32,061 nt of DNA, taken from positions 1-32,061 of IMG/VR virus record IMGVR_UViG_3300045740_000094; one strand, written 5' to 3'. This DNA comes from a virus. Shown here piece by piece: positions 1,106 through 32,061 of this stretch. The first letter of the stretch is position 1. Each line of letters opens with the position of its first letter. The notes beneath the pieces are model-generated. The model made no database searches, was not told where the DNA came from, and saw only the letters and a program-made list of their open reading frames with translations. The position numbers and the translations under genes are program-made.

Positions 1106-1132
1106 TATTAAAGTTTTTATCTACGTATGATC

Positions 1133-1139
1133 TATTTAT
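1133..1139 (-). promoter_or_regulatory. putative late promoter upstream of gp20
   Basis: Minus-strand ATAAATA (in context AATAAATAGATC), about 28 bases before the gp20 ATG, overlapping the end of the gp19 stop. It resembles the T4-like late promoter core TATAAATA. Confidence 0.55.
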
Positions 1140-1753: not shown

Positions 1754-1762
1754 TTTTAGGTT

Positions 1763-1769
1763 CCTCCTT
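1763..1769 (-). promoter_or_regulatory. strong ribosome binding site of gp19
   Basis: Minus-strand AAGGAGG with 9 bases to the ATG at 1753. It is the clearest Shine-Dalgarno site in the window and fixes the gp19 start. Confidence 0.9.
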
Positions 1770-1773
1770 TAGT

Positions 1774-1784
1774 GATTTATAATC
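1774..1784 (-). promoter_or_regulatory. putative late promoter upstream of gp19
   Basis: Minus-strand GATTATAAATC, which contains TATAAAT, one base short of the T4-like late core TATAAATA. It lies about 21 bases before the gp19 ATG, inside the 36-base gap after gp18. Confidence 0.6.
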
Positions 1785-1789
1785 TAAAA

Positions 1790-14290: not shown

Positions 14291-17200
14291 TCAATAACCT
14301 CTTGGTGAAGACGAACCTGGTGATGATCTTGGTAGATTAGGTGAACCACCAATAAGTGGTCTATTATAATTTGCTGCATAACCACCACTTGGACTTGCCA
14401 ATCTACCACTTTGCTGTCCGGACACATATACATACGGATCAACTGTCCATGCTCCAGGACTGCTTGCATTTTGACCTGTCCAAGTACCTTGTGCTCCTGG
14501 TCTATACTGATATTGTCCTGGACCAACTAAGACTCCATTTGAAACTGTTCCGTCAGCATTAAATGTAACTCCACCAACTGTTCTTCCTCTAATTGATGTT
14601 GGAGAAGAGTTGAATATATTGACAGTTGAAGATGAAGGTGTAGATGATCCGGGACTAGATGGACGAGATGGAGGTCTTGTTACTCTTGGATCTGCTGGTG
14701 CTGGCCCAGAAGGTGGGGGAATTGGAACAGAAGTAACTGTAGTGTTAGTTTGAGTACTAGTCACTGGTTCTGTTTCATTAGCGAGACCCGTTTCAAGTCT
14801 AAGATCTCTAGTTACTAGGATATTTTCCTTAGTATTAGTTTTAAATCCTTCAGCATAGAACTTTTCTTCTGCACTTGTAGTAACCAATCCACCAACTGTT
14901 GTATTAACTTCACTATTTGTCATTCTAAAGAGTTTAATACCAACCTGGAATTTTGGTGAAGACAAGTTGTTAGGATTTGGAATATGGAAAGATCCTATAA
15001 GAGTACCGACATTATCTGTAATAAGTCTAACGTCAGTGACTGTTGCTACTGCACCACTTGTCCCTCCACGAAGTATCACTCCTTTAGTTACATGACCTTG
15101 ATACAAACCTTGAGTTATGTTTGATAGTGAATATGTATCGACATTTAATATAGTCGATGATGCAGAATAAACACTAGGTAGAGTATTATTTCTACTATAT
15201 GGATTTAAAGTAAAGACATCTGTTGGTCTATTATATGGACCATATTTGTGATTAGGTGCCGCTACTCTAAATTTAAATTCATTAAGTTGAGGTGGTGATA
15301 TGCATCCGGGTGCTCTTTCAGATCTTTTTCCTCCAGGTGTCGGTGCAAGTGAAATTGTAGGGAAGAAAGGTATAGGATTATATAAAATATTTGGTTCAGC
15401 ATAAACAGTTTCACCAACTTGGAAAACACCACTAATCATACTAATTTCAAGTAGTTTTGGTGTGCAATAATTTGTGATATTGACACCATCAAAGAAATTG
15501 TAAACCTGAGTAAATGGTTTCATTCTCTTGGCAGTGAATTCAATATTTCTCTGCCTCATATAAGGAACTAAATCAATACTTACAATAGAGTCTCCAAGAG
15601 ATCTATTATTAAATTGCTCTGACGCAATTTGTCTGTTACCTTCTCTTGTTCTTGTTCCAGTGTTAGTTGTAGTTACAGTTGTTTCTGTAACATTTCTAGA
15701 ATTTTGTGTATATCTTCTAACATCAGTTTGCGTAGATGAACCAGTCCAGTTAGTTTCCCAAGAATTCCATGTAACAGGACCAAATCCAGTTTGTGCGTCA
15801 AATCCTTCTTGGGTAAGTTGTTGTAAGGTTTTAGTGTAATTACCCTCAACCTCTATAGATGTAGATGGAAGTCTAACAGGATCGATCCAAACATCTGATG
15901 CTGGATATAATTGAATTGTTCCTGTATAATAAGTGCTTCTAAATGGAGCAACATTTACTACTTTAGTTGCATATGGTTGAGAAGTTTCTAAAACCTCTTC
16001 AAAATCTAAAGTTAAAAGTTGTCCAGTTACTTTAACTCCAGATCCTACCAAATCTTCTACAAACCTTAAGTCTGCATTAGTATTTGAAGTTTGAGTAAGT
16101 CCAAGTAAAGATTCTGATCCAATAACTAAGTCTAATTCTGTTGTATAATGAGTTGGTCTCAACTCAGAATTAGAAACATCAATAGAATTTTTTACACCAG
16201 TAACTTTTCTCTGATACAAAGTACCAGCAAAGTTATCCACAAAAAATCCAGATTTAAATCTATCTAAACCATTTGCATCTCTAACTTTAAAATTAGAGGT
16301 ATCAGTTTCTAAAAGTGATAGTGTTGTATAGAATTCTAAATTGCTTATTCTCTGTTCCAACTTTTGAATGTCGGACATTCTATATCTCTTATGTCTCACC
16401 AAAGAAACGGTTGCTTCATCAACTGTTTCGAGATATGCAGGAAGACTAATAGTTGCAATTTCTATTGCATCAGCAACTGGAAGTGGAAGTTGTGGATTTT
16501 CTGAAGGTTCTCCAGCTTTTAATTGGAAAAGACCGTCTTTAGTGAAAAATATCTTATCAATTCTTGGAAGATAGAATGAATAATCGATAATGATAGATTC
16601 ATCAGAAGCCAATATTTTTGTATATTCATTTTGATTAGAAACAAAATTTCTACCCAAGAATTCAAACGGAGACCTTGATCCTGCAGTTGGTGTGATTGTC
16701 GAAACTCTAGGTCTAACATCAATTACATCTGATACTGATCTTTGTGTTTTATTAACTACACTAGGAAGATTTTTATAGTCAAATTGTTGATATGAATTTA
16801 CTGTTAAAATATCACCTCTATCAGAATCCGAAATTTCTGCAGATTCAAAAATTATTCTAATTTTTTTATTAGATTCTTGTGTATCAGACTTTCTAATTAT
16901 TTTTGAATAATTATAAACAGTTTCCGAATATCCAGGATCTACAACATATCTGTTTGTAATATTATTACTACCAGCAGAAATACTTGATACTATTGCTTCG
17001 ATTCCGGATTCTTCAAATTTGACAAGTTCACCTACGGAGAATGAATTGTCATTTAAGTAAATAAAACCAACTGACAAATTGCTTTTAGATTCTACAAATA
17101 GAGCAATAGTTTCTCCAGAATCACTAACAATTCTTTCACCAACTATTAAATCAGAAGTTGATCCTGTAGGTCCAGAAAGTGTTGAAAATGTTATTGTAGG

Positions 17201-19771
17201 AATATTAGGATCGTTAGTGTCATTAGACTCAAAAATTCCATAGATGTTAGTAACGTCTGGAGTCAATAAACAAATCTCTTCATCTTGAACCCTGGTTCCA
17301 TATGGATAATTTCCATATGTCAATCCATCATTTAAAGTAGTGCTTCCAATACCAGATCCTGCATATTTTGAATTAGAAACAATTAAAGAATTAATTCTCT
17401 TCTTATTTTTAACTTTTTCAGTAACATTAATTTTTCTTAATGTAGTTATAAGTTTTGCTGATCCATTTCCAGAAAGTCCGTTTATGACTAAACCTCTTCC
17501 TCCAGTATTAAATTGGAATTTATCCGAACTTAATGGTTCAATAGTACCATCATTTCTTATTAATACATATCTTTCTTCATCATAAGGTAAAAATGTTTCA
17601 TCAGATGAAACTAACGTTGGAGAAATTGTAATACTATTTGAGGAAATAGTTACATCATATTGTCTTCTAATTGTCAAGTTAGACTCTGTTAGATCTACAG
17701 ATGCAATTTTTTCTTTTGGTAATAAAGTATAAAGTGTATTATCTGTAGAAGATTGTAATCTAGTTGTTAAGATTCTAAAATCACTTGGAGATATGGATGT
17801 AGTTGGAAGAGAACCTTGACATACACCAGATACAGTTGTTATTCCGGTTATTTCTAAGAAAGATCTTTGTACATTCTTTACTCTAGCATAAGTAGGATCC
17901 GTAAAACTTGGATCCGAGAATGCAACAAGATTTCCTACAGTTGCAATTCCAATAAAGTAGATATCAGAAGAAGTTACAGTAGATACTCCAGTTGCAGCAT
18001 CTCTTGGACTTATATTTACCTGACCTATAATATTTAATGGATACTGAATAGTATCTGCACTAAATGTTGCAGCAGATCCAACATTTGAATAAATTGATTT
18101 TACATCTCCAATACCATAAGATGTAACTGCGGTAGAAACTCTAGTATTTTCAATACCATCAAAAATCAATCTTTCACCAATACTAAACTTACCCGTAATA
18201 TTATATGCAGTTAATATACCAGAATTGGAAAGATCATATCTTAAAAATCCTACTGCTCCACTCGATTTACCTTTTACTTGAGTTGGAGTGGATAATGTAA
18301 TTGGTTCATTTAGAGAAATTTCCGTATGAGTTTGAATATCATAGAGAGAAATATCCCACTGGTTCAAATTCAAATTACTAGTATTGTAAGAACCAGATTC
18401 TAATGCAAAATCATATACTCTAGCAACACCAATTTCCTTTCCTGCTGCTATTGTACTTGCTACCCCAGATATTGTATAACTTGTCTGAGAAGTTCCTACT
18501 CTACTATCTCGTAAACTTACATAATATGAGGTAGATATGCCGATAGTCGGACATCCATTTACTCTATTGAGGGTAAATGATGGTCCTACAGAGTAAATTA
18601 ACTGTTGATTTGTTAATAACTGAGTGGTTCTTGGTTTTTGAAAATCTATAAAGGTTGTGGAAACAGTTTCACATTCAAATCCACGAATATATGCTTTACT
18701 TGGAGATATCTGATATGTTCCTAAGTCATCAGATGGAACATTACCAGAATAAGTCTGCACATTTTTAGGAAAAACACCATTATTTCCTAAGTAGTTATTC
18801 AAAGTTTCTCTAACAACTAAAGTTGGAGGAACTACATAATAGTCTCCCGATTCGTCATAAGTTCTTCTGGCAAACTCTTTTCTAAGTTCACCCAACTCAG
18901 CGTTTACAACTCTGTCAATTAAAGTACCATCAATTATAGAGGCAATTTGAACAAAATTTGATGGATTTTCAACATCTTGAGGAACTTTTGCTAAAACTGC
19001 GTTAATGGAAAATCTATCCGCTCCAGGAGCAGCATAGTTTAAAAATCCATTAGCATTATCATTTAAAGATTGATCTTCATTTGAAGTTACTATTCTTTCT
19101 TCAATTTGAAAACCTACTTTATAATTTGGTCTATTATCATACCTATCCAAAAATAATATTTGACTAGATACTGATACAAAAGTTCCTCTCAGATAATATA
19201 CACCACTACTTAAAATAAATGCAGATCCAACTGATGTTGAATTTTCTGCTAAAGTTCTAGCAAAAGGTTCTCCAGAATTAATGAGAACATTTCCAGTGGA
19301 TAATAAAATGTCTTTTTCGCATATTAATTGCTCACCATCAAGAAACGTACTAGATCCATCAACTCCAGTATCTAGATAGTTTAAATGAAGTGTATTATTT
19401 TCTCTTTCGGAAGAACTTGCAGGAGTAACAATTATAACCTTTGCTCTTACTCCACTAATTGATCCTCTGATAGTAGATCCTGTTAATGTGCCAATATATG
19501 CCGAAACATCAATTCCATTAAAAGAAGGTTCAATCTCTACTGCATCAAACTGATTATTATATTCCCAACTTCCCGGTATTACAACGGTCCCTTCACTTTT
19601 TAAGGTAAAGTTGCCAAGTTGTTCAATCTGATTTTGTAAAGCAGATTGAATTGACGTTAACTCTCGTGCCTGAACAGGATATCCAGGCTTGAACAATATC
19701 TTTTGATAGTTTTTTTGTGGATCAAAATCATCAAAATATGGAAAAACGTTGAGGTTAGTCTGTTGTGGCAT
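14291..19771 (-). CDS. 1826-residue virion structural protein with DUF4815-type N-terminus
   Basis: A giant baseplate or tail-associated structural protein. The N-terminus (MPQQTNLNVFPYFDDFDPQK, then LFKPGYPVQARELTSIQSAL and GTVVIPGSWEYNNQFDAVEI) is a strong DUF4815 signature. Much of the middle is beta-rich and of low complexity. The C-terminal third carries VVNVAPFRSTYYTGTIQLYP, a positively charged motif at FTAKRMKPFTQVYNFFDGVN, then ITNYCTPKLLEISMISG, RGGTSGAVATV and SAEEKFYAEGF, as in other DUF4815 proteins. The last 150 residues are a Pro/Ser/Gly/Tyr-rich tail (VPIPPPSGPAPADP; GQYQYRPGAQGTW). In relatives I remember, DPLAQTF follows this point in the same chain; here it begins the next gene. 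The ATG at 19771 lies 6 bases after the gp8 stop. Its exact baseplate role is not known. Confidence 0.86.
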   Translation of the reverse strand: MPQQTNLNVFPYFDDFDPQKNYQKILFKPGYPVQARELTSIQSALQNQIEQLGNFTLKSEGTVVIPGSWEYNNQFDAVEIEPSFNGIDVSAYIGTLTGSTIRGSISGVRAKVIIVTPASSSERENNTLHLNYLDTGVDGSSTFLDGEQLICEKDILLSTGNVLINSGEPFARTLAENSTSVGSAFILSSGVYYLRGTFVSVSSQILFLDRYDNRPNYKVGFQIEERIVTSNEDQSLNDNANGFLNYAAPGADRFSINAVLAKVPQDVENPSNFVQIASIIDGTLIDRVVNAELGELRKEFARRTYDESGDYYVVPPTLVVRETLNNYLGNNGVFPKNVQTYSGNVPSDDLGTYQISPSKAYIRGFECETVSTTFIDFQKPRTTQLLTNQQLIYSVGPSFTLNRVNGCPTIGISTSYYVSLRDSRVGTSQTSYTISGVASTIAAGKEIGVARVYDFALESGSYNTSNLNLNQWDISLYDIQTHTEISLNEPITLSTPTQVKGKSSGAVGFLRYDLSNSGILTAYNITGKFSIGERLIFDGIENTRVSTAVTSYGIGDVKSIYSNVGSAATFSADTIQYPLNIIGQVNISPRDAATGVSTVTSSDIYFIGIATVGNLVAFSDPSFTDPTYARVKNVQRSFLEITGITTVSGVCQGSLPTTSISPSDFRILTTRLQSSTDNTLYTLLPKEKIASVDLTESNLTIRRQYDVTISSNSITISPTLVSSDETFLPYDEERYVLIRNDGTIEPLSSDKFQFNTGGRGLVINGLSGNGSAKLITTLRKINVTEKVKNKKRINSLIVSNSKYAGSGIGSTTLNDGLTYGNYPYGTRVQDEEICLLTPDVTNIYGIFESNDTNDPNIPTITFSTLSGPTGSTSDLIVGERIVSDSGETIALFVESKSNLSVGFIYLNDNSFSVGELVKFEESGIEAIVSSISAGSNNITNRYVVDPGYSETVYNYSKIIRKSDTQESNKKIRIIFESAEISDSDRGDILTVNSYQQFDYKNLPSVVNKTQRSVSDVIDVRPRVSTITPTAGSRSPFEFLGRNFVSNQNEYTKILASDESIIIDYSFYLPRIDKIFFTKDGLFQLKAGEPSENPQLPLPVADAIEIATISLPAYLETVDEATVSLVRHKRYRMSDIQKLEQRISNLEFYTTLSLLETDTSNFKVRDANGLDRFKSGFFVDNFAGTLYQRKVTGVKNSIDVSNSELRPTHYTTELDLVIGSESLLGLTQTSNTNADLRFVEDLVGSGVKVTGQLLTLDFEEVLETSQPYATKVVNVAPFRSTYYTGTIQLYPASDVWIDPVRLPSTSIEVEGNYTKTLQQLTQEGFDAQTGFGPVTWNSWETNWTGSSTQTDVRRYTQNSRNVTETTVTTTNTGTRTREGNRQIASEQFNNRSLGDSIVSIDLVPYMRQRNIEFTAKRMKPFTQVYNFFDGVNITNYCTPKLLEISMISGVFQVGETVYAEPNILYNPIPFFPTISLAPTPGGKRSERAPGCISPPQLNEFKFRVAAPNHKYGPYNRPTDVFTLNPYSRNNTLPSVYSASSTILNVDTYSLSNITQGLYQGHVTKGVILRGGTSGAVATVTDVRLITDNVGTLIGSFHIPNPNNLSSPKFQVGIKLFRMTNSEVNTTVGGLVTTSAEEKFYAEGFKTNTKENILVTRDLRLETGLANETEPVTSTQTNTTVTSVPIPPPSGPAPADPRVTRPPSRPSSPGSSTPSSSTVNIFNSSPTSIRGRTVGGVTFNADGTVSNGVLVGPGQYQYRPGAQGTWTGQNASSPGAWTVDPYVYVSGQQSGRLASPSGGYAANYNRPLIGGSPNLPRSSPGSSSPRGY
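14294..14750 (-). other. Pro/Ser/Gly/Tyr-rich C-terminal tail of the 1826-residue protein
   Basis: The last 150 or so residues are low-complexity: a proline run (VPIPPPSGPAPADP), RPPSRPSSPGSSTPSSSTVN, a short ordered-looking piece (GVTFNADGTVSNGVLVGPGQ, then YQYRPGAQGTWTG), and a second Ser/Pro end (LPRSSPGSSSPRGY). Composition differs sharply from the rest of the gene, and the tail precedes the break to the next gene. Confidence 0.85.
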
Positions 19772-19777
19772 AATAGT

Positions 19778-21334
19778 TTAGAATTGCAAAATTACCTTGA
19801 TATCTTCTTTTTGGTTTGATGATCTAGTAATGGAGGGTCTATTATCAACATAAATTATATTTCCAGAGTGCTTTTCAACTTCTGGAGTAGCAATACCATT
19901 CTCAAAATATTGTCCAAAATAGTATGTCCTACTATTTATTACGGTAGAGATGCCACTAAATGCTGTATCTATACTTAATGAAGTTCCACTTGATCCAACA
20001 ACAACAGTTGTTCCTCCAGAACCAACTGAAGATGTGAATTGATTTAAATTAAATCCGTAAGTCGGATTTGTATTGCGAGTTCCGTCAGTATTAAATCCTG
20101 CCAGACTTCTATCCTGCCAATATTTTAAAACTCCAGTATTCTGATCATAAGAAACTACTCTTCCAACTGCAGTTGATCCTAATCCTACAGTCTGAGTTAT
20201 AATAGAATCTGCGATAAAAGTTGTTGAACTGTATCCAATACCTGTCAATTTTATTGCAGATAATGCACTAACTTTATTTGCAGTAAGAGTTGTTGCAGAA
20301 TTATATGCCAAAGGATTTTCAACAACACCTACTCTTGCTATTTGATTTCCAATAATAAAATCTGGGTCCTGAAGATCATTTTCAATTCTGGAATATAGCA
20401 TTACACTATAAGCACCCAATTCACGATAGATATCATATCCATGTCCACCTTTAGGAGGTATAATAACATCAAATGTAGGTCTGGTAATTCCTGTAGGAAC
20501 ACTGCCAGATTCTAAATCTACACTACCAAAGGTATAACCAGATCCTCCATTTGAGATTGTAATGGATTCTACCTTAGAATCTGCATTAACTACGATGGTT
20601 GCTTCTGCACCTGAACCATCACCTTTAATTGGCACGTTATAATATGTAGTATTTGCAGTTCCAAGACCAACTCCTCTATTAGTGACAGTTACGATCTTTA
20701 ACTGACCACTAGTTGTTGCATTATTTCTTACCGCAGAGTCAGTTGTATTTGTTTCCCAATCCTTTGGTACTGGTATAAAGTTGAGAGAATCGAACTTAAT
20801 AATATCACTTGGTTTAATGGTATAGAGATATTTCCAAATATACCCATCTCCACTATTACCAGCAGATCTTGGCTCTAAATCGGTAAAAGTTGGTTCATCT
20901 AGTGATGGTCTACCTTCAGGATTTTCTGGAGAAACTCCATTATTTAAACAGATATAAACCTTATAATCACTATTAACGACATAATAATTTGCCGAATATA
21001 AACTAGTTGCTCCAGATGGTTTTGATGTATTTGTTCTACTTATATCATGACGATACATGTCATAAGTAATTCCAGAAGTCCAAGTATTTTTTCTTACAAC
21101 CTGACATATATCACTTGCATTAATTTTCTTTAATGCAATCATCGTATCCCAATAATCATTTTCCTCACTGAAATTATCCTTAGGTGCTGGTGGAGTTACA
21201 TCCCAAGTTGGGGAATAATCCGTTGCATTAGGAAGACCAACAAAGGCATAATAAGAATTTGCGGAAGAAGTTGCAGCAGAAACAAAGTTCTTCGCATTTA
21301 ATATTCTTAATTGGTCAGTTATAATTGCGGACAT
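19778..21334 (-). CDS. 8: gp8 baseplate wedge protein
   Basis: This is the T4 gp8 family wedge subunit, which joins gp7 and gp10 in each baseplate wedge. It has 518 residues, against 334 in T4. The start MSAIITDQLRILNAKNFVSA with NSYYAFVGLPNATDYSPTWD is typical of cyanophage gp8. Also typical are TYDMYRHDISRTNTS, YYVVNSDYKVYICLNNG, SGDGYIWKYLYTIKPSDIIK, GGHGYDIYRELGAYSVMLYS and IENDLQDPDFIIGNQIARVG. The extra length comes from a Gly-Tyr insertion (VTNRGVGLGT, ISNGGSGYTFG) and a second insert with VGRVVSYDQNTGVLKYWQD, which resemble modules in gp14. The gene follows gp7 after 20 bases. That gap holds an ATAAATA motif and no Shine-Dalgarno site. Confidence 0.94.
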   Translation of the reverse strand: MSAIITDQLRILNAKNFVSAATSSANSYYAFVGLPNATDYSPTWDVTPPAPKDNFSEENDYWDTMIALKKINASDICQVVRKNTWTSGITYDMYRHDISRTNTSKPSGATSLYSANYYVVNSDYKVYICLNNGVSPENPEGRPSLDEPTFTDLEPRSAGNSGDGYIWKYLYTIKPSDIIKFDSLNFIPVPKDWETNTTDSAVRNNATTSGQLKIVTVTNRGVGLGTANTTYYNVPIKGDGSGAEATIVVNADSKVESITISNGGSGYTFGSVDLESGSVPTGITRPTFDVIIPPKGGHGYDIYRELGAYSVMLYSRIENDLQDPDFIIGNQIARVGVVENPLAYNSATTLTANKVSALSAIKLTGIGYSSTTFIADSIITQTVGLGSTAVGRVVSYDQNTGVLKYWQDRSLAGFNTDGTRNTNPTYGFNLNQFTSSVGSGGTTVVVGSSGTSLSIDTAFSGISTVINSRTYYFGQYFENGIATPEVEKHSGNIIYVDNRPSITRSSNQKEDIKVILQF

Positions 21335-21351: not shown

Positions 21352-21358
21352 TATTTAT
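21352..21358 (-). promoter_or_regulatory. putative late promoter upstream of gp8
   Basis: Minus-strand CATAAATAG, one mismatch from CTATAAATA-type late promoters, about 18 bases before the gp8 ATG and overlapping the gp7 stop codon. Confidence 0.5.
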
Positions 21359-24300
21359 GAGGTGTAGTCTTCGTATTTTAATGGATTATATCTTTGAATA
21401 ATTGGTGAAGTTGCAATTCCAGAAATTCCATTATTATAGTAAGCAAATGATTTTGCATCACTTCTGGTCATATTGTATATTCTTCCCCAACTATACTCTC
21501 CATAGAAAGAACTAAATCCTAAACCAGTTAGTCCATTATAGTTGGATACACTAACTGTTACTTTTGCAACATAAGTTAAACCAACTCCAGTAACATTAGT
21601 TTGCCCTATAGAAACTGCTGCCACTTGATATACATTATCAATAAATGAAGTTCCAATTCCAATAGTAGAACCACTTTGATTTATAGATGTTACTCCATTT
21701 CCAACGTTAGAATTATAAACGACAAAGTAGTATCCTGTTTGGATTCCACTAATTCCTGTTGTAGCAATTCCCACAGAATTTACACTGAGATCTCTAAGGA
21801 ATGAATTCTTAGGTATGAAGAAATCAAACACAATTCCTGTTGAGGCAACTCCTACAGAAGTTGTCTTTATTCCAGAAATAATTCCAAAATCACCTTGATA
21901 AGAAACTCTATTAATAACCTCTCTATTTACGGTTGGAGACTCTATCAATACAACTGGTGGATTTGATGTTGTGTATCCAGTTCCTGGTGAAGATACTGTT
22001 ATTGAAGAAATAGTTCCTCCAATAGATACTGAAGCAATAGCAGATGCTCTTTGAGTTATTCCTAATCCCACTGGATTTTCAATAACGACGGTTGGTGCTA
22101 CTGAATAACCAAGTCCACCATCAGATATAACAACAGAACTTATGGTTCCTGCAACAGAGACTATAGCAGTTGCTGCAGCAGAAACTAAGTTATCTTGAGA
22201 TGTTATAACAATTTTCTTTTGAGGAATTTCAGTGGTTCCGTCTTGGAAATATTCATCAGCACTATCGAAGAAAGTTTTAACACTTTCTACAAAAATTTGA
22301 GTGGATGCTGCAGATACATTTTGGATAATGTTTGTTGAAGGATTAATTAATGCCTCATAAAGAACTCTATCTTTAGCAACTTGTTGACCATTAAGAATTC
22401 TATCCTCGGTTTGCCTGCACCAAATTACGGGTCTGCTATAGTTTGGATCTTCAGAAATTCCTGGAGAGGTATAAACATTTGTTCCAACAATATCAGTAGA
22501 AAGAATTTCATTTACAATTCTATTATTTTCTTTGAATGAAATATTATCATCATTTAGAGTCAAAGTATCTCCAACTTTTACGGTTTCTAAAATATCAATA
22601 TTTACAGTATCAACTTCACTAGTTCCTTTGTAGAAGATAATCTTACATCTATCTCCTTCTTTTGGTGGTTCTGCAAAGGTTATAACACTACCCCCATTAA
22701 ATGAATAACCTTTTCCTGGAACTTGCAAAACGTCATTTAAGAATATAAGAAGAGTAGACTCAACATTAATATTTGATCCTTTTTTGGATCTGATGGTGGT
22801 TTGATTGCCATTCAATTTAATTGGGAATGTAACTCTATTTCCATCAAATAAATCATCAATAACATCAAAAACTTGAAGATCTCCAATAACCCATCCACTA
22901 AATTCATCATTTATTGTTTGGTCTATGGTAATTTGGAATTCTTTAAACGAAATTGATGGATCTGTTGGTATTCCGGATTGTCCACCAACTGCTACAGTTA
23001 AAATTTCACTTTGTCCGTATCCGTATCCAGTATTGATAATTTCAAAAGAAATTACACTAGATCCCTGCCCAACCACAATATTTGCTTTAGCACCTGTTCC
23101 AAGACCACTAGATGAAGAACTATAAACCAAAGGAATATCTGAGTATGATAATGGAGAATCAAAAATAACTAATGGTGGATTTGATGAAGTATAACCAACT
23201 CCTGGGTTAGTAATAGCAACACTCACAATATGTCCACCACTAATAGCAGCAGTTCCAATAAATTGGATATTTGATGTAATACTGGAAGTTACTACTCCAA
23301 CATTTACTATTGTTTGTATTCCTACTCTATACCCAGATCCACTGTTTCCAATACTAATTGATGATATTGTTCCAGCAACAGATACATTAGCAGTTCCTCC
23401 CGCAGCAACTAAAGGTTGATATCCAAGACCTGATGTTGAACCAACGGAAACAATTACTCCACCACGAGGAATACTAGCAGTGTTTACATCACTAGTTGTT
23501 GATGTTGCTGTTCCAGTGAATCTAATTGAAGTGATTCCAGAAGACTCTATTAAATCATAATCTCCTACAATAGATATTGCTCCAGATCTTTGTGGACCTT
23601 GGAATATATCATTTACTAAGACAATAGCATTACTTGTAGAGAATCCAGATATATTTGAACGATTTGAAGTCAACGTAAATTGACTAGTAACACCATCAAA
23701 GTCTGAAGAAAGACTATCAAAAATATAATTTTTCGAATATGGTTCAGAATCTGTATTAGGCACTCCAGATTTCATAAAGACTCTTCCACTAAATGTAGAA
23801 TGCGTTTCTAGTCCAACATAATCTCTTTCATCTGGTTTGTTCGTTGTTGTTCCTATTGGAGTTAATCCATAAGGAGCCTCTGCAAAGTATAGTGTATTTT
23901 CTACAATATTATAATTTCCGGAAATTTTTGTTACTATAGTATCTTTTGCATGTGTTGCAATTCCAGTTCCAAGCCAAGGTCTTCTTACAGTAAGAGTATT
24001 TGGATTGGTGTTTAATCCTACAGAACTAATTCTCATGATTTCATCATCAATTTTAATCAAATCACCAGCAAAGAATGATGTTATTCCTGTAATATCAAAT
24101 CTAGTTTCTGCTCTAGAAAGGAAACTTGAAAGTGAAGATGTTATAGCTGTAGAAACAATCGGAGATTGAATCATATTATCAATTGATAATAATACTTTAG
24201 AATTTGGATTCAGAGATGTAAATCGATGCGAAGTACCGATACCAACACTAGTGAATTCAACTGTATTGGGTGGAACTGCTAAAGCATCAGCAGTTGAAAG

Positions 24301-27300
24301 AGCAACCCTTACATAAAGTTCATTTTCTTTTACAATATAAACAGTACTTGGAAGTTTATTTGTAACTCCAATTCCTGATACAGTAGTCGTAGCAATTCCG
24401 ATAGAAGATGTAGTACCAGCACCAGAATATGAATACTGAACTTTTTCTCCAGTAACAAAGAAATTTTCAGGAATTTTTATTGTCGATGTAGTACCTATAC
24501 CAATAATATTTGGATCACTTCCGTCAAAGTATCTTTCAAAAATTGGTCTTTGGTTGTAAGTTAAATTAAAGTCTTTTTTAATATCACTCTCAGCACCTAA
24601 ATAAAATCCATCTCCAGAATTTATAGATGCATTAGTAAAATCTATTGCTGTGATAGGAAGGGTATCATCAACATCTCCAATAGAATTTGTAAATACTACA
24701 ACTTCTACATCAATATTTGGATTTGGTGTAAAGTTAATGTCTACATCTCCAGATCCTTTTACAGTTGATCCTATAGATCCTATAGAACCATTAGTCTGAA
24801 TAATACCAAACTCAGAAATGTGTGAATCTACACCATCATCTAATATTGCAATTTCAGATACTTGATATTCATTATTTGTAGTATCTTTGATAAGAACAAC
24901 ACAATAAGCTCCATCATAGGTAGAGGAGTATGATGAAATAGTTGTTATTCCTGGGGATGGTGATGATGATATTGCGACAAAATTTGATTGAATTTTTGAG
25001 TTATTAAATGATGTAGAATCCGTGGAAGTTGGATTATCTGATAGATTGATATGTAAAGAGTTAATTTTATATTCTGAAGTTGTTGTATTGTATGGAATAA
25101 AGTCTAGGTTGATATTTGATCCGGAATAATAAACATGATATGTACCCAATCCAGCAGTAGATGCTGATTGTAAATAAGTTGTATTTAATTGACCATATTC
25201 TACAGATTCTATTGATGTTCCATCATGTAAAATTGTAATTTCGTCAGACTCAAAATATGACTCATCGGAAGCAGAAATTTGAACCATAACTTTCGATGAT
25301 CTATATGTTGAAGCAATTCCAACTACAGTTACTGGAGATGAAGATGAAGTAGGTAAAATACTTGTACTTGAACCAACATAAACAGCATCTCCTAAATTAA
25401 TATGTCCAACTCCAGTTACGATAGGTTCTAGACTATAAGCAACTACACTTACATCATAATCATTAATTAGATTTTTTACTGGATAAAATAAAAGTTGACC
25501 TCTAGATCCACTGATATTAAAATCAAAAGATCCCAAATCAGAATAAGATTCAACTCTTCCATATTGATTTAAGAATCCTATTGAACGATTTTGTAATAAA
25601 GAAACAAGTAAGATTTGTCTATCGTTAGTAAATAATCTATCTTTAGTAAATGTTATAAACTTTGTAAATGTGTTATCTAAGTGGAAATCATAAACAGTAC
25701 TAAATTTAGTGGTTCTTGGATTGCTGTTAAATTCATTACTAAAATCATCCACAGTAAGAACTCTATTTCCTACGGATTCAACATAATCCTGAAGAATTCT
25801 AGAATTGAATATAATTTGATTTGATTTTGTTGCACCATCAATAAAAATGTTATTTTCTCTTGCAAGATCAAAATCATATACACAATTTAAATCAACAACA
25901 GAAGAAATGTCAGCAACTCCTACAAAGTCGCCATTATTTTGACTAGTGGAAATTCCAGAAAATTCATCTGTAGAAGAATGAACTTGAAGATCACTAAACT
26001 TCTTAAATCCCGCAGTATGATTCAAAGAACTTACTGGTTCTTCCCAAGTGTTGTATTGAACTTCTGACTTAAGTGAATATGAGAAATATTGATAATAGTC
26101 AGAATCATGAATTCTTTGAGTTTCATCATTTAAGAATCCTTTATTGGTTTTCCATCCATCATTCGATATATTGAAAGCAGAAACTTGATAAGTCAAATCT
26201 GGGTTAAATCTAAGAGTGGTTACAATACCAACAGATTTAGAAGTTAATCCTTTGATTTGAGATCCAGTAGTAAAATCATCAGAACTTGATACTTTTAGAA
26301 TACCATTCTTACTATCCCATTCTTCTACTAAACCATAATAATTTTCGGATACCACTTCTTCTCCCACATAAAAATCATTAGATTTCAAAGAAATATCAAA
26401 TATAGGGAAATACTTTTCTGGGACTACAATTCCTGAAGAATTAATAGCATCATAATTTCCAGGATATTCGTTATTACCAAGATATTCACTTAAATTATAT
26501 GAAATAGTCGCACCAATTCCTCCAATATTTGGATCAGTATTAACAACAGTAAAGAGGGAATAATTATAAGAAGACGAGTTATAACCCTTAGCAGTAGACC
26601 CTACACCTACACTAACATGCTCTACTAATATTTTTTCTCCAATAGCAAATGGGAAATCATTAATGCTACTAAAACTTGAACCTAATGTTACAACAACATC
26701 TTTGGAATTATTATCGAAACTAATATTTGTTACTGGAATTCCATTTGTGTTATTGATTGGAATAATAGTTGGAAATATTCCTGAAATACCCTTAGTATTA
26801 CTTAAAATAGTAACCTCAGAATCTCCTAAAGAATAAGACAAATCTACATCGGATATGATCGATTGATCTGATCCTTTTAAAACCAAATCAGGAGATAAAC
26901 TATAATTTTTTCCAACAGAAGAAATTCCGATCCTATCAATTGAATAAAATGCATTTACAGTGAGTAGATCTGGAAGTTTTGCAGTTGGTCTAAGCGTTAA
27001 ATCTGATGGATAATCAAATCCAAAATTTTGAATTTCAACGGATGTAATATTACCAATTTCATTAGACTGAAGTTCAACTAGAGCACCCGATCCATTAATT
27101 GTTTTTATTGTAGAAATGCCAGGAATTGACTTTGAATTATCAAAATTTGCATTTGATAAAATGTTTAATACAGCATCGATTGGTCCATCTGTACTATCGG
27201 AATTGGTAATATAATTTACTACAGAATTTGAGTTTGTATAGGATTTAACCTGAGGAGTTTCTGCAATATTATACTTGAATGTAGTATTACCCACTCCAAT

Positions 27301-30300
27301 TACTTGGAAAGAACCGGAGTAAACACTATCTACTAACTTTATACTGTTATTATTCAATACTTCAGTATCTTCAACAATTTCTTTCTTTGTTGTTGGAGAA
27401 ATATCTGTATTTTTTGGAGTTAATTTATAATAAAGAGTTTTTGGTGTAGAATCATTTACAGTTAATGCAACATATGCATTTGCAGAAATTCCTATCTGTC
27501 CGGACTTTACAACTTCACGATCTGCAAAATCAGCATAAAATTCAAATTTATTTTCAAAGGTTGAATCATAGTAAAAATCAAAATCAAATGCAGAATAAAG
27601 TTGAGAATTATTAGTAAACGATAAAGAAGAATCTGATAAATCAAATATTAAACGGGAATTCTTCACCAAATTAATTTGTGGATTTACTTCAGAGAAAGAT
27701 CCACTACCAGTAGAAGTTAAATTTATATAATTTGGGAAATTCTTAGTAGCAGAATAATAAGTTGTTGCTAACTTTATTTCATCCTTATTGACTAAGATTA
27801 CATAGTAAATATTTTGATTTACTAATCCGCCTATTGGAGAAACTGATTTATATAATACTTTATCTCCAGAATTATATCCATGATTTTCTAAAGTAATAGT
27901 GTTCGAAACTATATTTACTTTATCAGATGTGAAAGATCTTTCATTTAAAACCAATACTCTATTATAGTCATTATATTTTACATAAAGAGTTGTTGATGCT
28001 GAAGAAACAAGAGAAACATTAACAGAATCTAAGAGAGATAAACCGTGTGTTGATGCTGTGGAAACAGTAACGGTGTTCTTGTAAACACTGCCCAATAAAA
28101 TGTCATCATAATTTGTAGACAAACTATGAATGGTTCCAGATCCAACTCCAGTGATAAAAAGTGTAGATTTTGTTGAATTAGTAGTTCCTAATCCTACAAA
28201 AGAACCGTTTGTTCCAAGTCCAATATTAACAGTGGATATTCCAATAAGATCATCTGAAACTCTTGCAGCATAAACTATGGAATTTTCTCCTAAAGTAAAG
28301 GAAGAAACTCCATCAGTGGATACGGAAATTGGACTACCACCATTTGATGAGTATACTAATTCTGTATTTGTTAGTAATTGATGTCCTGGAATATAAATTG
28401 TCTTTGTTGGAATAAAAATTTGAGTTATTCCTGCTCCAGGATTTGAGAATGATAAAGTCGATCCAACGCCTGTTCCTGAAGTAGTTCCTAAACCAACTGA
28501 TTCTGCTGGATTTAAGTAATATTTTTTATTTAATTTGTATTGATAGGATGTTTGTATTCCAGTCTTAATTGAGAATTTTCTTGGTTTCTCTGTTAATGCA
28601 ATACCTACAGGGAATGTAGAGAATCCTGAAACTGTATTATTTTGATTTCTTAATACTCTAATTCTAGAATTGTCTCTATCAACATTTAATACCTTTACTT
28701 CTTCATCAAGGATTTTGTAAATGTCATTTTCTCTTATCGATAGATTTCCGCGTACATTAAAATAAGTTACAATACCAGTATATGCTGTAGATCCAACTCC
28801 TACACTGAGATTTAGGATATTTGTATTTACTACAATATTTGATGTTTCTTTAATTTCAGGAATAGAAATAGAAACGAGATCGTTATTCAAATAACCATGA
28901 GGAATTGTAGAGTAACCTACTAAGTAATTGGTATTACCCTCTAGTAAAAATTCTACATTAGTAAATTCTGAAGTTGCTACACTAACAGATTGTACATTTT
29001 TACCTTTTATAGAAACTACTTTTGATATATCCGAAGTTTCTTTATAAGTTATAATATCACCAACTTTATAGTTGTTTCCTCCAGTAATTATTCCTGCTGA
29101 TGAAATTTTTCCTACAGATATTGATTTTACTTTGGAAATTTCACTAATGTTATTACTAGTTTTATTTAAATAATTGTAAAAACTATTTGGTTCGTCAAAG
29201 TTATATGGATTAATATTTCTAAGTAGTCCACTATTCATCAAATCAAAATTATTTTGATTTGATGATATTTGATAGTTAAATTCTATACTCTTTGACTTGT
29301 AAGTATTTCCAATTATGTATGGGAATAATGGTTTTTTGTAGTTTGAGAATGGTCCACCAGATTCAACTGGACCATCATCAACTGTACAGAAATAAGCATA
29401 TACTCCTTGAGGAAATTCAGGTGTTACGCAGAATCTTCCATTATGTTCGTCTAAATCTCCAGATCCATCATACTCATAATCTTCCACAAAAAATCCACTA
29501 GGATAAATCGACAAAGATGGTCTATTTGGTTGAATTGATTCTACATATCCAGGTTGCAAAGGTTTTACTGTTGCTGCACCAGAAGCAACCGAATATCCAT
29601 ATGGTCCGTATATTGGATTTCCATCATAAGCCCATCCAAGTATCGGTGAGTGTGAAACGGACTTTTGTTCTATTCCATTTAGAACAACTAGATCGGGAAC
29701 GTATACAATTTCACCATTTACATTTTTTTGAGATAAGCAATATTTTCTTAAACTTCTAGGTGAATATGCATGGCAATATTGTAGTTCATAATCTTGATTA
29801 AAGTTATTTACTACAATACCATCATCATCTGTTATTTTTTGAGTCTTTATTAATCTTTCAACTTGGTTAATTCTCCATGATTTTATTTCTGCATTAAGTT
29901 CTAGTTTTGATCCGGCAGGAACAATATTGATTGATGTTGTGTCTTGAGTGTAACCACTACCTTTACTTTGAATTTTAACAGATACAATTTGTCCGTTTTT
30001 TATAATTGGAACTAATTTTGCACCAAATCCTGACCCATTAACTACTAGATCAGGAACTGCAGTATATCCAGATCCAAAATTATTGATGACAACATCTGTT
30101 ATTGATCCATTATTGATAACTGGTGTCATCTGTGCAGATGATGCACTATCTAATGAAAACTCAGGTTGTCTATTAAAATTGATAATATCTTCAGATCCAT
30201 AATTAAGTCCACCATCATTAACAAAAACTGATTGAACTTTTCCTCTAAAGACAGGTTGTAAAACTGCATTAAAGTTTTGATTTGAAAGAGTAGAAATTCC

Positions 30301-32061
30301 AATATTTCCAACAACATTAACACTTATTGGTTCGTAATTAAAAATATGAGTTCCAGAACCAACTGATGTTATATCAACATACTGTTTAGTTTTAAAATAA
30401 AAATTCTTTTCTTCAGATGAAATCCCTACAATAGATAATTTGATATTATCTTCGTCAACCTTTGTTACATAATAAGATGTTGATGCTAGTCCACCAGCAA
30501 GTGATCCTGTAGACGTATAAGTAATGATTTCACCACTCAAATAATTATGATTTTTTAGTGTAATCTGATTAAGTGCAGTATTAATTCCTGCCGAAGTGCA
30601 AGAAGTCTTTTTGGATTGATAATTTTCACCAGAACTTGTTACAGTTATTGATGATATTCTTTTTTTCAGAGTAGAAGACTTAAATTTATGATTTCCTACT
30701 CCATAAGAAGTTAACGATATTGTGTTTATTCCTGATACACTATCGGAGAAGGATTTGTGTAATTTTATGGTAAATGCATCTTGAACAGAAACATAATATG
30801 CGGAGGACGTGGAAAGTCCACCAACTGCAGTTTGTCCCTGAGGATCATAAAAGACATACTCATTATCTCTAAATTTATGGAAAGTAGTAAATCCTATTGT
30901 TTCATTAGAAAGATTTACTAAAGATGATGAAGATGAATTGAATAAAACTTCATGCTCAAATGATGTTAGATTTGCCTTTGCAGCAGCACCAAATCCATTT
31001 CCTCCAGTAATTAATACTTCAGGTTCATCTAAGTAGTCAAATCCAGAATCAATAACATCAATCTTCAATAATGATCCATTTACTGAAGAATATACAGATG
31101 CCCCGGTGCCAACAGAATCATAAATTTGAACTGTTGGTGGATTTATTACATCAAAATCATTAGAGGAAGAAAGTACATCAACTTTCTTTATAGGACCATA
31201 GTAAACAATATCATTTGATTTATAACCATAAGATTCAACTCCATTTACAAAAATACCGATAGCACCAGATGGAGTTTCATCCTTTACTATTTCATCAAAA
31301 CTTCTTCTAATTTTTCTTAAAAGATTTTGTGGTTGTATATATTTTCTTTCTAAAGATTCTGTAGTTTGACTTCTGAAAACAAAAATATCTTCAAAAGCAG
31401 ATCCGGAAATTGAAATGTATCTTTCATTAAAGATATCATTTCTACTTCTTGCTATTTTAAAAGTATTGCTCGAAAGTCTTACTACAAAGTAAATTCCAGT
31501 TTGAAGATCTAAGGTGCTATCTTCTCCGGAATAATAAACTACAGAATCTCCAGTATATAAACCATGATTTTGAGCATGAATTTCATAATCATCATTAAAA
31601 GTTCCTGAAAATACTACTTTTCTGACATTTGGGAATATTGTTTCACTTCCATAAAAAGGAATTGAAGATGAAGCAACATAAATTGCATCTTCACTTTCAG
31701 AAAAGTATACATTTTGAACATCAGTATTGTAAATACTTAGATCATTATCATCATAAATTAAATTTGATTTAAGTAATTGCTTTTCTGCTTTGTATTCTAA
31801 GGATAAATTTAGTATAGAATCTAATCTAACTTCAATAGAGTTTTTATTTAAATATGAAACTACAAAACCTAAGTAATTTTCACCAATTGATGAAATTACT
31901 TTTACAGTATCATCAATTTTAAAATAATGTTGATCATAAAAATCCAGTTGATAAACAGGACCAGATGATGAATCTTTTAATCTTAATGATTTAACATTAT
32001 AAGTTACTGGAATATTAAAAAACCAATTATTTGCTCTAATGCCAAGTAATTTTTTACCAAG
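21355..32061 (-). CDS. 7: giant gp7-like baseplate wedge protein, N-terminus beyond right edge
   Basis: The frame is open from the stop at 21355 to the right edge, giving 3568 codons with no stop. I read the part above 31068 codon by codon; the TTG at 31068 is only an internal codon. Position directly before gp8 and the cyanophage pattern indicate the gp7 wedge protein, which is 1032 residues in T4. A YHYH-type domain lies at about 29390-29657. At least five copies of a beta module with NHG-type starts and YYV centres occur. Several Gly-Tyr repeats cluster near 31040, 30060, 29960, 23330-22980 and 22110-21960. One RG-type module lies near 24000, and a YGLVEEWDSKNGILKV module near 26330. The whole chain is Ser/Thr/Gly/Asn/Ile-rich and beta-like, with no membrane segment. 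A host-receptor role for the modules is inference. The gp7 name rests mainly on position. Confidence 0.82.
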   Translation of the reverse strand, partial: LGKKLLGIRANNWFFNIPVTYNVKSLRLKDSSSGPVYQLDFYDQHYFKIDDTVKVISSIGENYLGFVVSYLNKNSIEVRLDSILNLSLEYKAEKQLLKSNLIYDDNDLSIYNTDVQNVYFSESEDAIYVASSSIPFYGSETIFPNVRKVVFSGTFNDDYEIHAQNHGLYTGDSVVYYSGEDSTLDLQTGIYFVVRLSSNTFKIARSRNDIFNERYISISGSAFEDIFVFRSQTTESLERKYIQPQNLLRKIRRSFDEIVKDETPSGAIGIFVNGVESYGYKSNDIVYYGPIKKVDVLSSSNDFDVINPPTVQIYDSVGTGASVYSSVNGSLLKIDVIDSGFDYLDEPEVLITGGNGFGAAAKANLTSFEHEVLFNSSSSSLVNLSNETIGFTTFHKFRDNEYVFYDPQGQTAVGGLSTSSAYYVSVQDAFTIKLHKSFSDSVSGINTISLTSYGVGNHKFKSSTLKKRISSITVTSSGENYQSKKTSCTSAGINTALNQITLKNHNYLSGEIITYTSTGSLAGGLASTSYYVTKVDEDNIKLSIVGISSEEKNFYFKTKQYVDITSVGSGTHIFNYEPISVNVVGNIGISTLSNQNFNAVLQPVFRGKVQSVFVNDGGLNYGSEDIINFNRQPEFSLDSASSAQMTPVINNGSITDVVINNFGSGYTAVPDLVVNGSGFGAKLVPIIKNGQIVSVKIQSKGSGYTQDTTSINIVPAGSKLELNAEIKSWRINQVERLIKTQKITDDDGIVVNNFNQDYELQYCHAYSPRSLRKYCLSQKNVNGEIVYVPDLVVLNGIEQKSVSHSPILGWAYDGNPIYGPYGYSVASGAATVKPLQPGYVESIQPNRPSLSIYPSGFFVEDYEYDGSGDLDEHNGRFCVTPEFPQGVYAYFCTVDDGPVESGGPFSNYKKPLFPYIIGNTYKSKSIEFNYQISSNQNNFDLMNSGLLRNINPYNFDEPNSFYNYLNKTSNNISEISKVKSISVGKISSAGIITGGNNYKVGDIITYKETSDISKVVSIKGKNVQSVSVATSEFTNVEFLLEGNTNYLVGYSTIPHGYLNNDLVSISIPEIKETSNIVVNTNILNLSVGVGSTAYTGIVTYFNVRGNLSIRENDIYKILDEEVKVLNVDRDNSRIRVLRNQNNTVSGFSTFPVGIALTEKPRKFSIKTGIQTSYQYKLNKKYYLNPAESVGLGTTSGTGVGSTLSFSNPGAGITQIFIPTKTIYIPGHQLLTNTELVYSSNGGSPISVSTDGVSSFTLGENSIVYAARVSDDLIGISTVNIGLGTNGSFVGLGTTNSTKSTLFITGVGSGTIHSLSTNYDDILLGSVYKNTVTVSTASTHGLSLLDSVNVSLVSSASTTLYVKYNDYNRVLVLNERSFTSDKVNIVSNTITLENHGYNSGDKVLYKSVSPIGGLVNQNIYYVILVNKDEIKLATTYYSATKNFPNYINLTSTGSGSFSEVNPQINLVKNSRLIFDLSDSSLSFTNNSQLYSAFDFDFYYDSTFENKFEFYADFADREVVKSGQIGISANAYVALTVNDSTPKTLYYKLTPKNTDISPTTKKEIVEDTEVLNNNSIKLVDSVYSGSFQVIGVGNTTFKYNIAETPQVKSYTNSNSVVNYITNSDSTDGPIDAVLNILSNANFDNSKSIPGISTIKTINGSGALVELQSNEIGNITSVEIQNFGFDYPSDLTLRPTAKLPDLLTVNAFYSIDRIGISSVGKNYSLSPDLVLKGSDQSIISDVDLSYSLGDSEVTILSNTKGISGIFPTIIPINNTNGIPVTNISFDNNSKDVVVTLGSSFSSINDFPFAIGEKILVEHVSVGVGSTAKGYNSSSYNYSLFTVVNTDPNIGGIGATISYNLSEYLGNNEYPGNYDAINSSGIVVPEKYFPIFDISLKSNDFYVGEEVVSENYYGLVEEWDSKNGILKVSSSDDFTTGSQIKGLTSKSVGIVTTLRFNPDLTYQVSAFNISNDGWKTNKGFLNDETQRIHDSDYYQYFSYSLKSEVQYNTWEEPVSSLNHTAGFKKFSDLQVHSSTDEFSGISTSQNNGDFVGVADISSVVDLNCVYDFDLARENNIFIDGATKSNQIIFNSRILQDYVESVGNRVLTVDDFSNEFNSNPRTTKFSTVYDFHLDNTFTKFITFTKDRLFTNDRQILLVSLLQNRSIGFLNQYGRVESYSDLGSFDFNISGSRGQLLFYPVKNLINDYDVSVVAYSLEPIVTGVGHINLGDAVYVGSSTSILPTSSSSPVTVVGIASTYRSSKVMVQISASDESYFESDEITILHDGTSIESVEYGQLNTTYLQSASTAGLGTYHVYYSGSNINLDFIPYNTTTSEYKINSLHINLSDNPTSTDSTSFNNSKIQSNFVAISSSPSPGITTISSYSSTYDGAYCVVLIKDTTNNEYQVSEIAILDDGVDSHISEFGIIQTNGSIGSIGSTVKGSGDVDINFTPNPNIDVEVVVFTNSIGDVDDTLPITAIDFTNASINSGDGFYLGAESDIKKDFNLTYNQRPIFERYFDGSDPNIIGIGTTSTIKIPENFFVTGEKVQYSYSGAGTTSSIGIATTTVSGIGVTNKLPSTVYIVKENELYVRVALSTADALAVPPNTVEFTSVGIGTSHRFTSLNPNSKVLLSIDNMIQSPIVSTAITSSLSSFLSRAETRFDITGITSFFAGDLIKIDDEIMRISSVGLNTNPNTLTVRRPWLGTGIATHAKDTIVTKISGNYNIVENTLYFAEAPYGLTPIGTTTNKPDERDYVGLETHSTFSGRVFMKSGVPNTDSEPYSKNYIFDSLSSDFDGVTSQFTLTSNRSNISGFSTSNAIVLVNDIFQGPQRSGAISIVGDYDLIESSGITSIRFTGTATSTTSDVNTASIPRGGVIVSVGSTSGLGYQPLVAAGGTANVSVAGTISSISIGNSGSGYRVGIQTIVNVGVVTSSITSNIQFIGTAAISGGHIVSVAITNPGVGYTSSNPPLVIFDSPLSYSDIPLVYSSSSSGLGTGAKANIVVGQGSSVISFEIINTGYGYGQSEILTVAVGGQSGIPTDPSISFKEFQITIDQTINDEFSGWVIGDLQVFDVIDDLFDGNRVTFPIKLNGNQTTIRSKKGSNINVESTLLIFLNDVLQVPGKGYSFNGGSVITFAEPPKEGDRCKIIFYKGTSEVDTVNIDILETVKVGDTLTLNDDNISFKENNRIVNEILSTDIVGTNVYTSPGISEDPNYSRPVIWCRQTEDRILNGQQVAKDRVLYEALINPSTNIIQNVSAASTQIFVESVKTFFDSADEYFQDGTTEIPQKKIVITSQDNLVSAAATAIVSVAGTISSVVISDGGLGYSVAPTVVIENPVGLGITQRASAIASVSIGGTISSITVSSPGTGYTTSNPPVVLIESPTVNREVINRVSYQGDFGIISGIKTTSVGVASTGIVFDFFIPKNSFLRDLSVNSVGIATTGISGIQTGYYFVVYNSNVGNGVTSINQSGSTIGIGTSFIDNVYQVAAVSIGQTNVTGVGLTYVAKVTVSVSNYNGLTGLGFSSFYGEYSWGRIYNMTRSDAKSFAYYNNGISGIATSPIIQRYNPLKYEDYTS
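21955..23350 (-). repeat. Gly-Tyr repeats near the gp7 C-terminus
   Basis: The translated gp7 chain has a run of related units here: NSGSGYRVGIQTIV, NPGVGYTSSNPPLVIF, NTGYGYGQSEILTV, DGGLGYSVAPTVVI and SPGTGYTTSNPPVVLI. They are spaced irregularly, with one longer non-repeat insert between the third and fourth. More units lie near 30060 (NFGSGYTAVPDLVV) and 29960 (SKGSGYTQDTTSIN), and a divergent one near 31040 (DSGFDYLDEPEVLI). Confidence 0.85.
23920..24112 (-). repeat. RG-type module in gp7-like protein
   Basis: The chain shows RFDITGITSFFAGDLIKIDD followed by EIMRISS, LTVRRPWLGTGIATHAKDTI and VTKI. It is the third copy of the unit seen in gp15 and the 842-residue protein, with RPWLGT in place of RGxxGT. 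Confidence 0.72.
29390..29657 (-). other. YHYH-type domain inside gp7-like protein
   Basis: The translated segment reads SHSPILGWAYDGNPIYGPYG at one end and LDEHNGRFCVTPEFPQGVYA at the other. That is the pattern of YHYH domain proteins (family consensus with GWAxDGxPIYGPYGY and a closing Tyr-His-Tyr-His). The closing motif here is YAYF, so both His of the name motif are lost. The His of HSPI, the Asp of AYDG and the His and Asn of DEHNG remain. The function of the YHYH family is unknown. Here the domain is embedded in a virion protein. Confidence 0.8.
30340..30935 (-). repeat. two tandem NHG/YYV beta modules in gp7-like protein
   Basis: Two neighbouring copies read: TTFHKFRDNEYVFYD, VGGLSTSSAYYVSV, FTIKLHKSF and TSYGVGNHKF; then LKNHNYLSGEIITYT, AGGLASTSYYVTKV, DNIKLSIVG and TSVGSGTHIF. 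Other copies lie near 31440-31605 (QNHGLYTGDSVVYY), 27690-27905 (LENHGYNSGDKVLYK ... LTSTGSGSF) and 24220-24488 (FVTGEKVQYSY ... TSVGIGTSHRF). Confidence 0.78.

Follow-up and report, generated by a model that had tools for sequence, protein, structure and literature searches.

A YHYH-family domain without the conserved histidine triad in a giant cyanophage baseplate wedge protein

The YHYH domain of the window and the published hydrolase proposal

Fusion of the YHYH domain (Pfam family PF14240) to components of the tail or the baseplate is already in print and is described there as frequent (PMC7824862, 2021). The passage of that paper on the domain predicts that a triad of conserved histidines plus an aspartate binds zinc and that the domain is a metal-dependent hydrolase, citing AOO14285.1. 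Here we describe a YHYH-family domain encoded by an ocean cyanophage fragment of 32,061 bases (IMG/VR record IMGVR_UViG_3300045740_000094; "the window" denotes this whole stretch), in which the domain sits about 1,200 residues into a wedge protein of about 4,000 residues. It is the same Pfam domain and, as in the published case, it is fused to a baseplate component; the histidine triad underlying the proposal, however, is gone both in the window and in the accession that the paper cites. We consider it probable that the window segment is a YHYH-family domain without a likely metal site, serving the wedge as a non-catalytic structural or surface-contact module.

The domain itself is real, its match lying far past chance: PF14240.11 (YHYH), whose gathering score is 25, scored 86.9 bits (89.4 bits for the domain alone) at E 2.2e-24, and a six-frame search of the window gave E 4.2e-27, with no match in any of 14 control genomes searched in the same way. 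The original prediction, made from the letters of the sequence, had placed a YHYH-type domain within a tail baseplate protein, had taken a sequence motif together with DEHNG for a good match to the family and had named a PF14240 search of the segment as the check. All of this was borne out: the score is well above the cut-off, the carrier is a phrog_2885 wedge protein, and the motifs are present letter for letter, GWAYDGNPIYGPYG (29596-29637, minus strand) and DEHNG each occurring once in the 3568-amino-acid (aa) protein. PF14240 is the sole Pfam family in this protein and has no other match in the record. The alignment is confined to the C-terminal half of the profile (Table 1), while for secreted cellular members and for stand-alone ones it begins at position 2-24.

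In S-RIM14 isolate Sn_11_0110, AOO14285.1 is encoded by an 18.6-kb gene for a structural protein; its neighbour AOO14286.1 is the stand-alone protein. We had considered, from the accession numbering, that AOO14285.1 might be the stand-alone protein, but the record shows the giant structural protein. Its domain (GGEYAHLSNPQRLRY...EHSPIIGWAFDG...DLDQYNGRFCKTPEYPDGTYAYF) has GGEYAHLSNP and belongs to the triad-less class; only two histidines occur in the stretch read, therefore no triad is possible there. The stand-alone S-RIM14 proteins carry GGHPEQNGRYHYH.

The histidine triad across the family

The zinc-site residues are left unnamed in the passage of PMC7824862, and we infer that they correspond to the first histidine and the two of YHxH, that is H71, H79 and H81 in the numbering of L120 (a secreted Bacteroidota/Acidobacteriota member), as placed by a joint alignment. 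None of the three is found in any of the 96 viral rows embedded in large open reading frames (ORFs), the window among them, and YHxH is likewise present in 0/96; with the residues assigned by our own alignment, the three histidines of the proposal are therefore absent from the embedded rows; the patterns of the scan for embedded copies do not cover the triad columns. The rows consist of the window itself, two sets of viral-contig loci (69 and 17) and 9 copies from named phages, the 69 being those kept after near-copy removal when 79 of 80 embedded viral loci had been parsed by script. For two of the 96 (L234_2 and L235_1) the carrier is the gp9/gp10-neighbour protein instead of gp7, and most viral-contig rows are counted without an individual check of their gp7 position. 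No triad histidine was seen in 8 large-ORF loci from metagenome-assembled genomes either.

The other classes keep the triad. All three histidines are present in 61 of 65 stand-alone cyanophage rows (found by a scan whose six patterns include QYHYHDSH, a bias towards an unaltered motif); the remaining 4 have Lys at position 71, and YHxH is found in 65/65. The same holds for 18 of 19 other cellular rows, which were hand-picked from profile-drawn loci, and for 44/44 secreted YAYF rows, hand-chosen from 73 script-parsed genome loci that had been found with patterns favouring YAY (YDGNPIYG and TP[ED][YF]PxG[VT]YA). Near copies and large ORFs were left out of the secreted rows, as were L102, L144 and L153, which are without one or all of the triad; L144 and L153 (titled Acidobacteria, 730 and 694 aa) are cellular YHYH-family proteins without YHxH. 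A script count made without any choice of rows gave the triad in 58 of 62 ORFs of at most 1000 aa versus 0 of 13 longer ones (75 of 80 genome loci parsed).

Outside the triad, the C-terminal half is largely shared. Residues H96, D105, D168, N171 and Y185-A186-Y187 (L120 numbering) are kept in 91-96 of the 96 embedded rows; the Asp ahead of the first histidine is kept in 11/96, and D813 and D871 of the window are kept. Secreted Bacteroidota/Acidobacteriota YAYF members such as L120 have HSPIxGxxxDGxPIYGxYGY, DLDxxNGR, TPEYPxGTYAYF and PYxxG in common with the window, together with a similar strand order and a profile-profile match at E 1.5e-57. In these secreted-type proteins, which have about 400-700 aa, H71, H79 and H81 are retained (44/44 aligned), whereas the window domain keeps none and lies in a giant virion protein. 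Searches of the open literature, a scope that leaves out most subscription papers, showed no publication on triad loss or on this split into an intact and a triad-less class. YHYH domains were also seen in very long phage-like ORFs on contigs binned as Euryarchaeota, Planctomycetaceae, Woesearchaeota, Flavobacteriales, Lewinella and others (L085-L089, L092, L095-L099, L117 and L162); where parsed they are triad-less, and several seem to be of viral origin and to have been sorted into cellular genomes.

The position of the name motif was settled on the profile. In cellular proteins YHYH occupies positions 74-77, since two different fragments that have the motif as their end align to 2-77, and those that begin with it align from 73/74 onward; this is ten positions ahead of the start of the window match (87), and YAYF falls at about 176-179, as calculated from the match of residues 799-895 to 87-183. 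The window has YCHA in place of YHYH/YHxH at 74-77, and hhalign of the embedded against the secreted class paired ELQYCHAYSPR with GGEYHHHVNPT in the match quoted above. The elements of secreted-type Bacteroidota/Acidobacteriota relatives follow the order GHP...GEYHHHxNP...HSPIIGYAFDGYPIYG...DLDxHNGRFCVTPEYPxGTYAYF, so that YAYF and YHxH stand within one protein and YAYF is not an altered name motif. Among profile-drawn family members the C-terminal element varies (YAYF, YAYY, YGYY, YSYY, YVYY, YYYA, YHYH), and YAYF stands beside an intact upstream motif in six Bacteroidota loci (L209, L210, L213-L215 and L217). A mutation of YHYH to YAYF is hence rejected. The original prediction was right that the name motif has changed, but the change is the YCHA further upstream, outside the range it had given, and not a conversion of YHYH to YAYF at the C terminus.

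AlphaFold2 gave a confident model of the window domain (mean predicted local distance difference test score, pLDDT, 89.4; predicted template modelling score, pTM, 0.83; 78 rows) and of L120 (pLDDT 92.1; 44 rows). After HSP the strands of the two models come in the same order, offset by about 5 to 10 residues, and the N-terminal halves differ in their predicted elements. Searching BFVD with the window model returned S-RIM14 A0A1D7SKQ1 at E 4.1e-11, with a root-mean-square deviation of 2.0 over 130 columns; with matches to stand-alone YHYH proteins at E 4.1e-11 and 7.8e-10, the C-terminal half has the same fold as theirs. In all, 16 predicted viral structures matched at E <=0.001, and those among them that bear a name comprise baseplate or structural proteins of cyanophages, the YHYH proteins of S-RIM14 and P-TIM40, an uncultured phage protein and Mimiviridae and Megaviridae YHYH proteins. 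Foldseek against the PDB gave no match (best E 1.0 for the window and 2.3 for L120), VIA-align returned nothing at Z >=2 for either model, and sequence searches yielded no solved YHYH structure of weight; a phmmer match to Rv0577 (E 0.046) covers only 43 residues and was taken as chance.

Possible roles of the embedded domain

Because three likely metal-ligand histidines have been lost, we favour a non-catalytic role. In its C-terminal half the wedge domain keeps the fold and polar core of the family; it probably catalyses nothing and acts as a rigid module for structure or surface contact. If the triad binds metal in the other members, its loss would abolish binding, and the role that remains would be structural or contact-making. 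Judged from the alignments, a hydrolase function appears unlikely for the embedded class.

Several points weigh against this reading. To our knowledge no YHYH domain has a tested function, nor has any experiment shown a member to bind metal, to be catalytic or to play a structural part. H804, D813, D871 and N874 are nearly invariant, and another site is possible in principle. To judge by the sequences of L144 and L153, YHxH loss is also found outside phages. Besides, the conservation of the domain (mean pairwise identity of 0.66 for the Pfam part versus 0.48 overall in the long ORFs of 13 relatives, exceeded by 1.9% of 100-aa windows; 0.43 for the N-terminal half of the domain) is inflated, since those 13 relatives were found with the domain as query. 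Finally, the zinc residues being unnamed in the passage of PMC7824862, their equation with the triad is our own.

That the domain binds a receptor or a glycan at the surface of the baseplate and so aids host recognition seems to us rather unlikely. The place in a large wedge protein is compatible with such a role, but the conservation of the domain exceeds that of most of the protein, unlike in typical host-range tips, and the high conservation of the C-terminal half argues against a fast-changing receptor tip; besides, no lectin fold was matched in the structure searches with the window and L120 models.

We regard as improbable a metal site made of other residues, either H804 with H764 and H873, or H804 with D813, D871 and N874. 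The second set draws on conservation, as the H804-type His and D813-type Asp are present in 96/96 embedded rows and the D871-type Asp and N874-type Asn in 93/96; however, the Asp and Asn residues are equally conserved in triad-keeping members and therefore give no sign of a replacement site. As to the first set, H764, H804 and H873 occur all together in only 45/96 embedded rows, and the H764- and H873-type histidines co-occur no more than by chance (Fisher p 0.26, rows not independent), so that the counts leave a replacement site from these three unsupported. The idea of the original prediction that the virion domain could bind a metal, with a site to be looked for among the retained His, Asp and Asn, has thus become less likely: no family histidine is kept, and nothing in the counts points to H764, H804 and H873 as a substitute site.

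A tail-associated metal-dependent hydrolase that helps to breach the cell wall, as proposed for jumbo-phage YHYH domains, is very improbable for the embedded domain: it has been predicted in print (in the passage of PMC7824862 cited above) and its candidate site is intact in the stand-alone cyanophage proteins, but all three candidate histidines are missing from 96/96 embedded rows, 39/96 have two histidines or fewer over the whole domain, and the domain of the cited AOO14285.1, the giant structural protein of S-RIM14, has two.

Starting from the favoured non-catalytic module, a broader and tentative scenario can be drawn, which we hold to be possible though not likely. In the gp7-position giant protein, what was once a metalloenzyme domain of the tail may have become a "pseudoenzyme" without metal, and this throughout the cyanophages; the active form, where kept, would reside on a separate virion protein, in some cases fused to an esterase-like domain. 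If this is true, the idea of cell-wall digestion by a baseplate YHYH domain fits the small paralogue rather than the giant protein, about which it was put forward. The split between the classes corrects the published functional prediction at its cited accession, and the intact stand-alone and triad-less embedded classes offer a ready paired experiment.

In a tree built from 87 rows and 116 columns, 40 of the 84 inner branches stayed open. The secreted YAYF rows (support 81) and the stand-alone rows (support 89) each form a single group, which the embedded rows do not; on a single origin for embedded and stand-alone copies the tree gave no conclusion. Capture of the domain from a cell, which the tree does not resolve, is plausible.

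Neighbouring genes and other viral copies

The features of the window are collected in Table 1. Against the 3568-aa ORF, phrog_2885 ("baseplate wedge subunit") scored 2975.5 bits, with residues 7-2934 on profile positions 435-3364 of 4179, which places the ORF in the family of gp7-type wedge proteins of T4-like cyanophages. As the alignment starts at profile position 435, some 430 N-terminal residues would lie beyond the contig end; the long ORFs of relatives have about 4000 aa. The gp8-like gene is the next gene downstream, directly after the ORF, and this supports the gp7 position; the place of gp6 lies past the contig end. Both gp25 and gp6 stand ahead of the homologous gene in S-SM2 (order gp25-gp6-gp7), Syn33 and P-HM1. 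The window is an ordinary member of this group, without notable difference from the gp7-like wedge proteins of S-SM2 (gp7), Bellamy (111) and P-TIM68, which share both the protein and the domain, the latter at 46-49% identity.

Table 1. Positions of the YHYH domain, its motifs and the surrounding genes in the window
Feature	Position	Strand	Basis
PF14240 match, C-terminal half only	29377..29667	minus	residues 799-895, profile 87-183/193
YHYH-family domain as modelled	about 29272..29922	minus	residues 714-930, AlphaFold2
SHSPILGWAYDGNPIYGPYG, conserved H804, D813, glycine/tyrosine motif	29596..29655	minus	H, D, P, Y invariant in 96/96 embedded viral rows
DEHNG (D871, H873, N874)	29437..29451	minus	Asp 93/96, Asn 93/96, His only 60/96 embedded rows
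YAYF, usual C-terminal element of the clade	29389..29400	minus	once in protein; YAY also in 44/44 secreted cellular rows
YCHA (residues 762-765), counterpart of YHYH, both motif His replaced	29767..29778	minus	hhalign and joint alignment
ORF of gp7-position baseplate wedge protein	21355..32061	minus	3568 aa, open at contig end; phrog_2885, relatives' lengths
gp8-like baseplate wedge protein	19778..21334	minus	PF09215 52.6 bits; phrog_438 562 bits

Elsewhere the window has genes of T4-like type for virion structure and packaging, namely those for portal, tail sheath, terminase large subunit, tail sheath stabiliser, neck and tail tube. The terminase is 84-86% identical to those of Bellamy, SynMITS9220M01, S-SM2 and S-SCSM1, and the portal is 84% identical to that of S-SM2; together these genes and identities indicate that the window comes from a T4-like cyanophage near S-SM2/Bellamy. 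Adjoining gp8 (14291-19771, minus strand) is a gene for a 1826-aa protein with DUF4815 (PF16075, 173 bits), which belongs to phrog_358, a family with no function assigned.

Relatives are abundant. With the 171-aa segment as query, tblastn matched 463 of 50,697 phage records, none of them at 60% identity or more and nearly all named Synechococcus, Prochlorococcus or cyanophage; at least 599 viral-contig stretches encode a relative, and a plasmid search gave 2 records. The family can no longer be described as known chiefly from cellular proteins, given these phage records and the tail and baseplate copies treated in the 2021 passage of PMC7824862.

The stand-alone cyanophage YHYH proteins (phrog_2576 and phrog_25852) share the domain with the window, but have GGHxxxxGxYHYH intact and about 460-670 aa, some with a separate C-terminal domain; ACG-2014d AIX37418.1, P-TIM40 YP_009188175.1 and S-RIM14 AOO14067.1 are encoded directly after the gp7-like gene. 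None is encoded in the 32-kb window. A single PF14240 match, in a large ORF, was found in 28/28 relative records (contigs of 11-215 kb, most of them fragments, taken from the 80 embedded viral loci), and complete S-SM2 and P-HM1 have one match each. Where the embedded domain is kept and no paralogue is seen, it is therefore not merely a docking partner for the paralogue.

In the phrog_2576 stand-alone proteins of ACG-2014d (AIX37418.1, L234:7809-9572) and S-RIM14 (AOO14067.1, L240:24938-26659), the C-terminal half contains LLHGAGGNG, GSSNGG, NDTTVPY and GHNT, and by our reading of these motifs it may be alpha/beta-hydrolase-like. AIX37418.1 matched the NCBIfam scl-PHA depolymerase model at E 6e-6, yet with 25.9 bits against a cut-off of 150, and a sequence search found no solved relatives of this half in either protein. 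The P-TIM40 version has a weak immunoglobulin-like tail in place of the hydrolase-like half. A further fusion may be present in L204, where PF14240 lies in a 753-aa ORF whose N-terminal part has THHHLDH, which suggests a metallo-beta-lactamase-like domain joined to YHYH. Finally, S-RIM14 AOO14069.1 (L240:27943-31497), which matches the phrog_708 baseplate wedge subunit, and ACG-2014d AIX37420.1 (L234:10794-14258) carry the YHYH domain as two PF14240 stretches with an insert of about 150 aa between them. The domain of AOO14069.1 ends in YYFCYNHANM, which may resemble the copper-ligand loop of cupredoxins.
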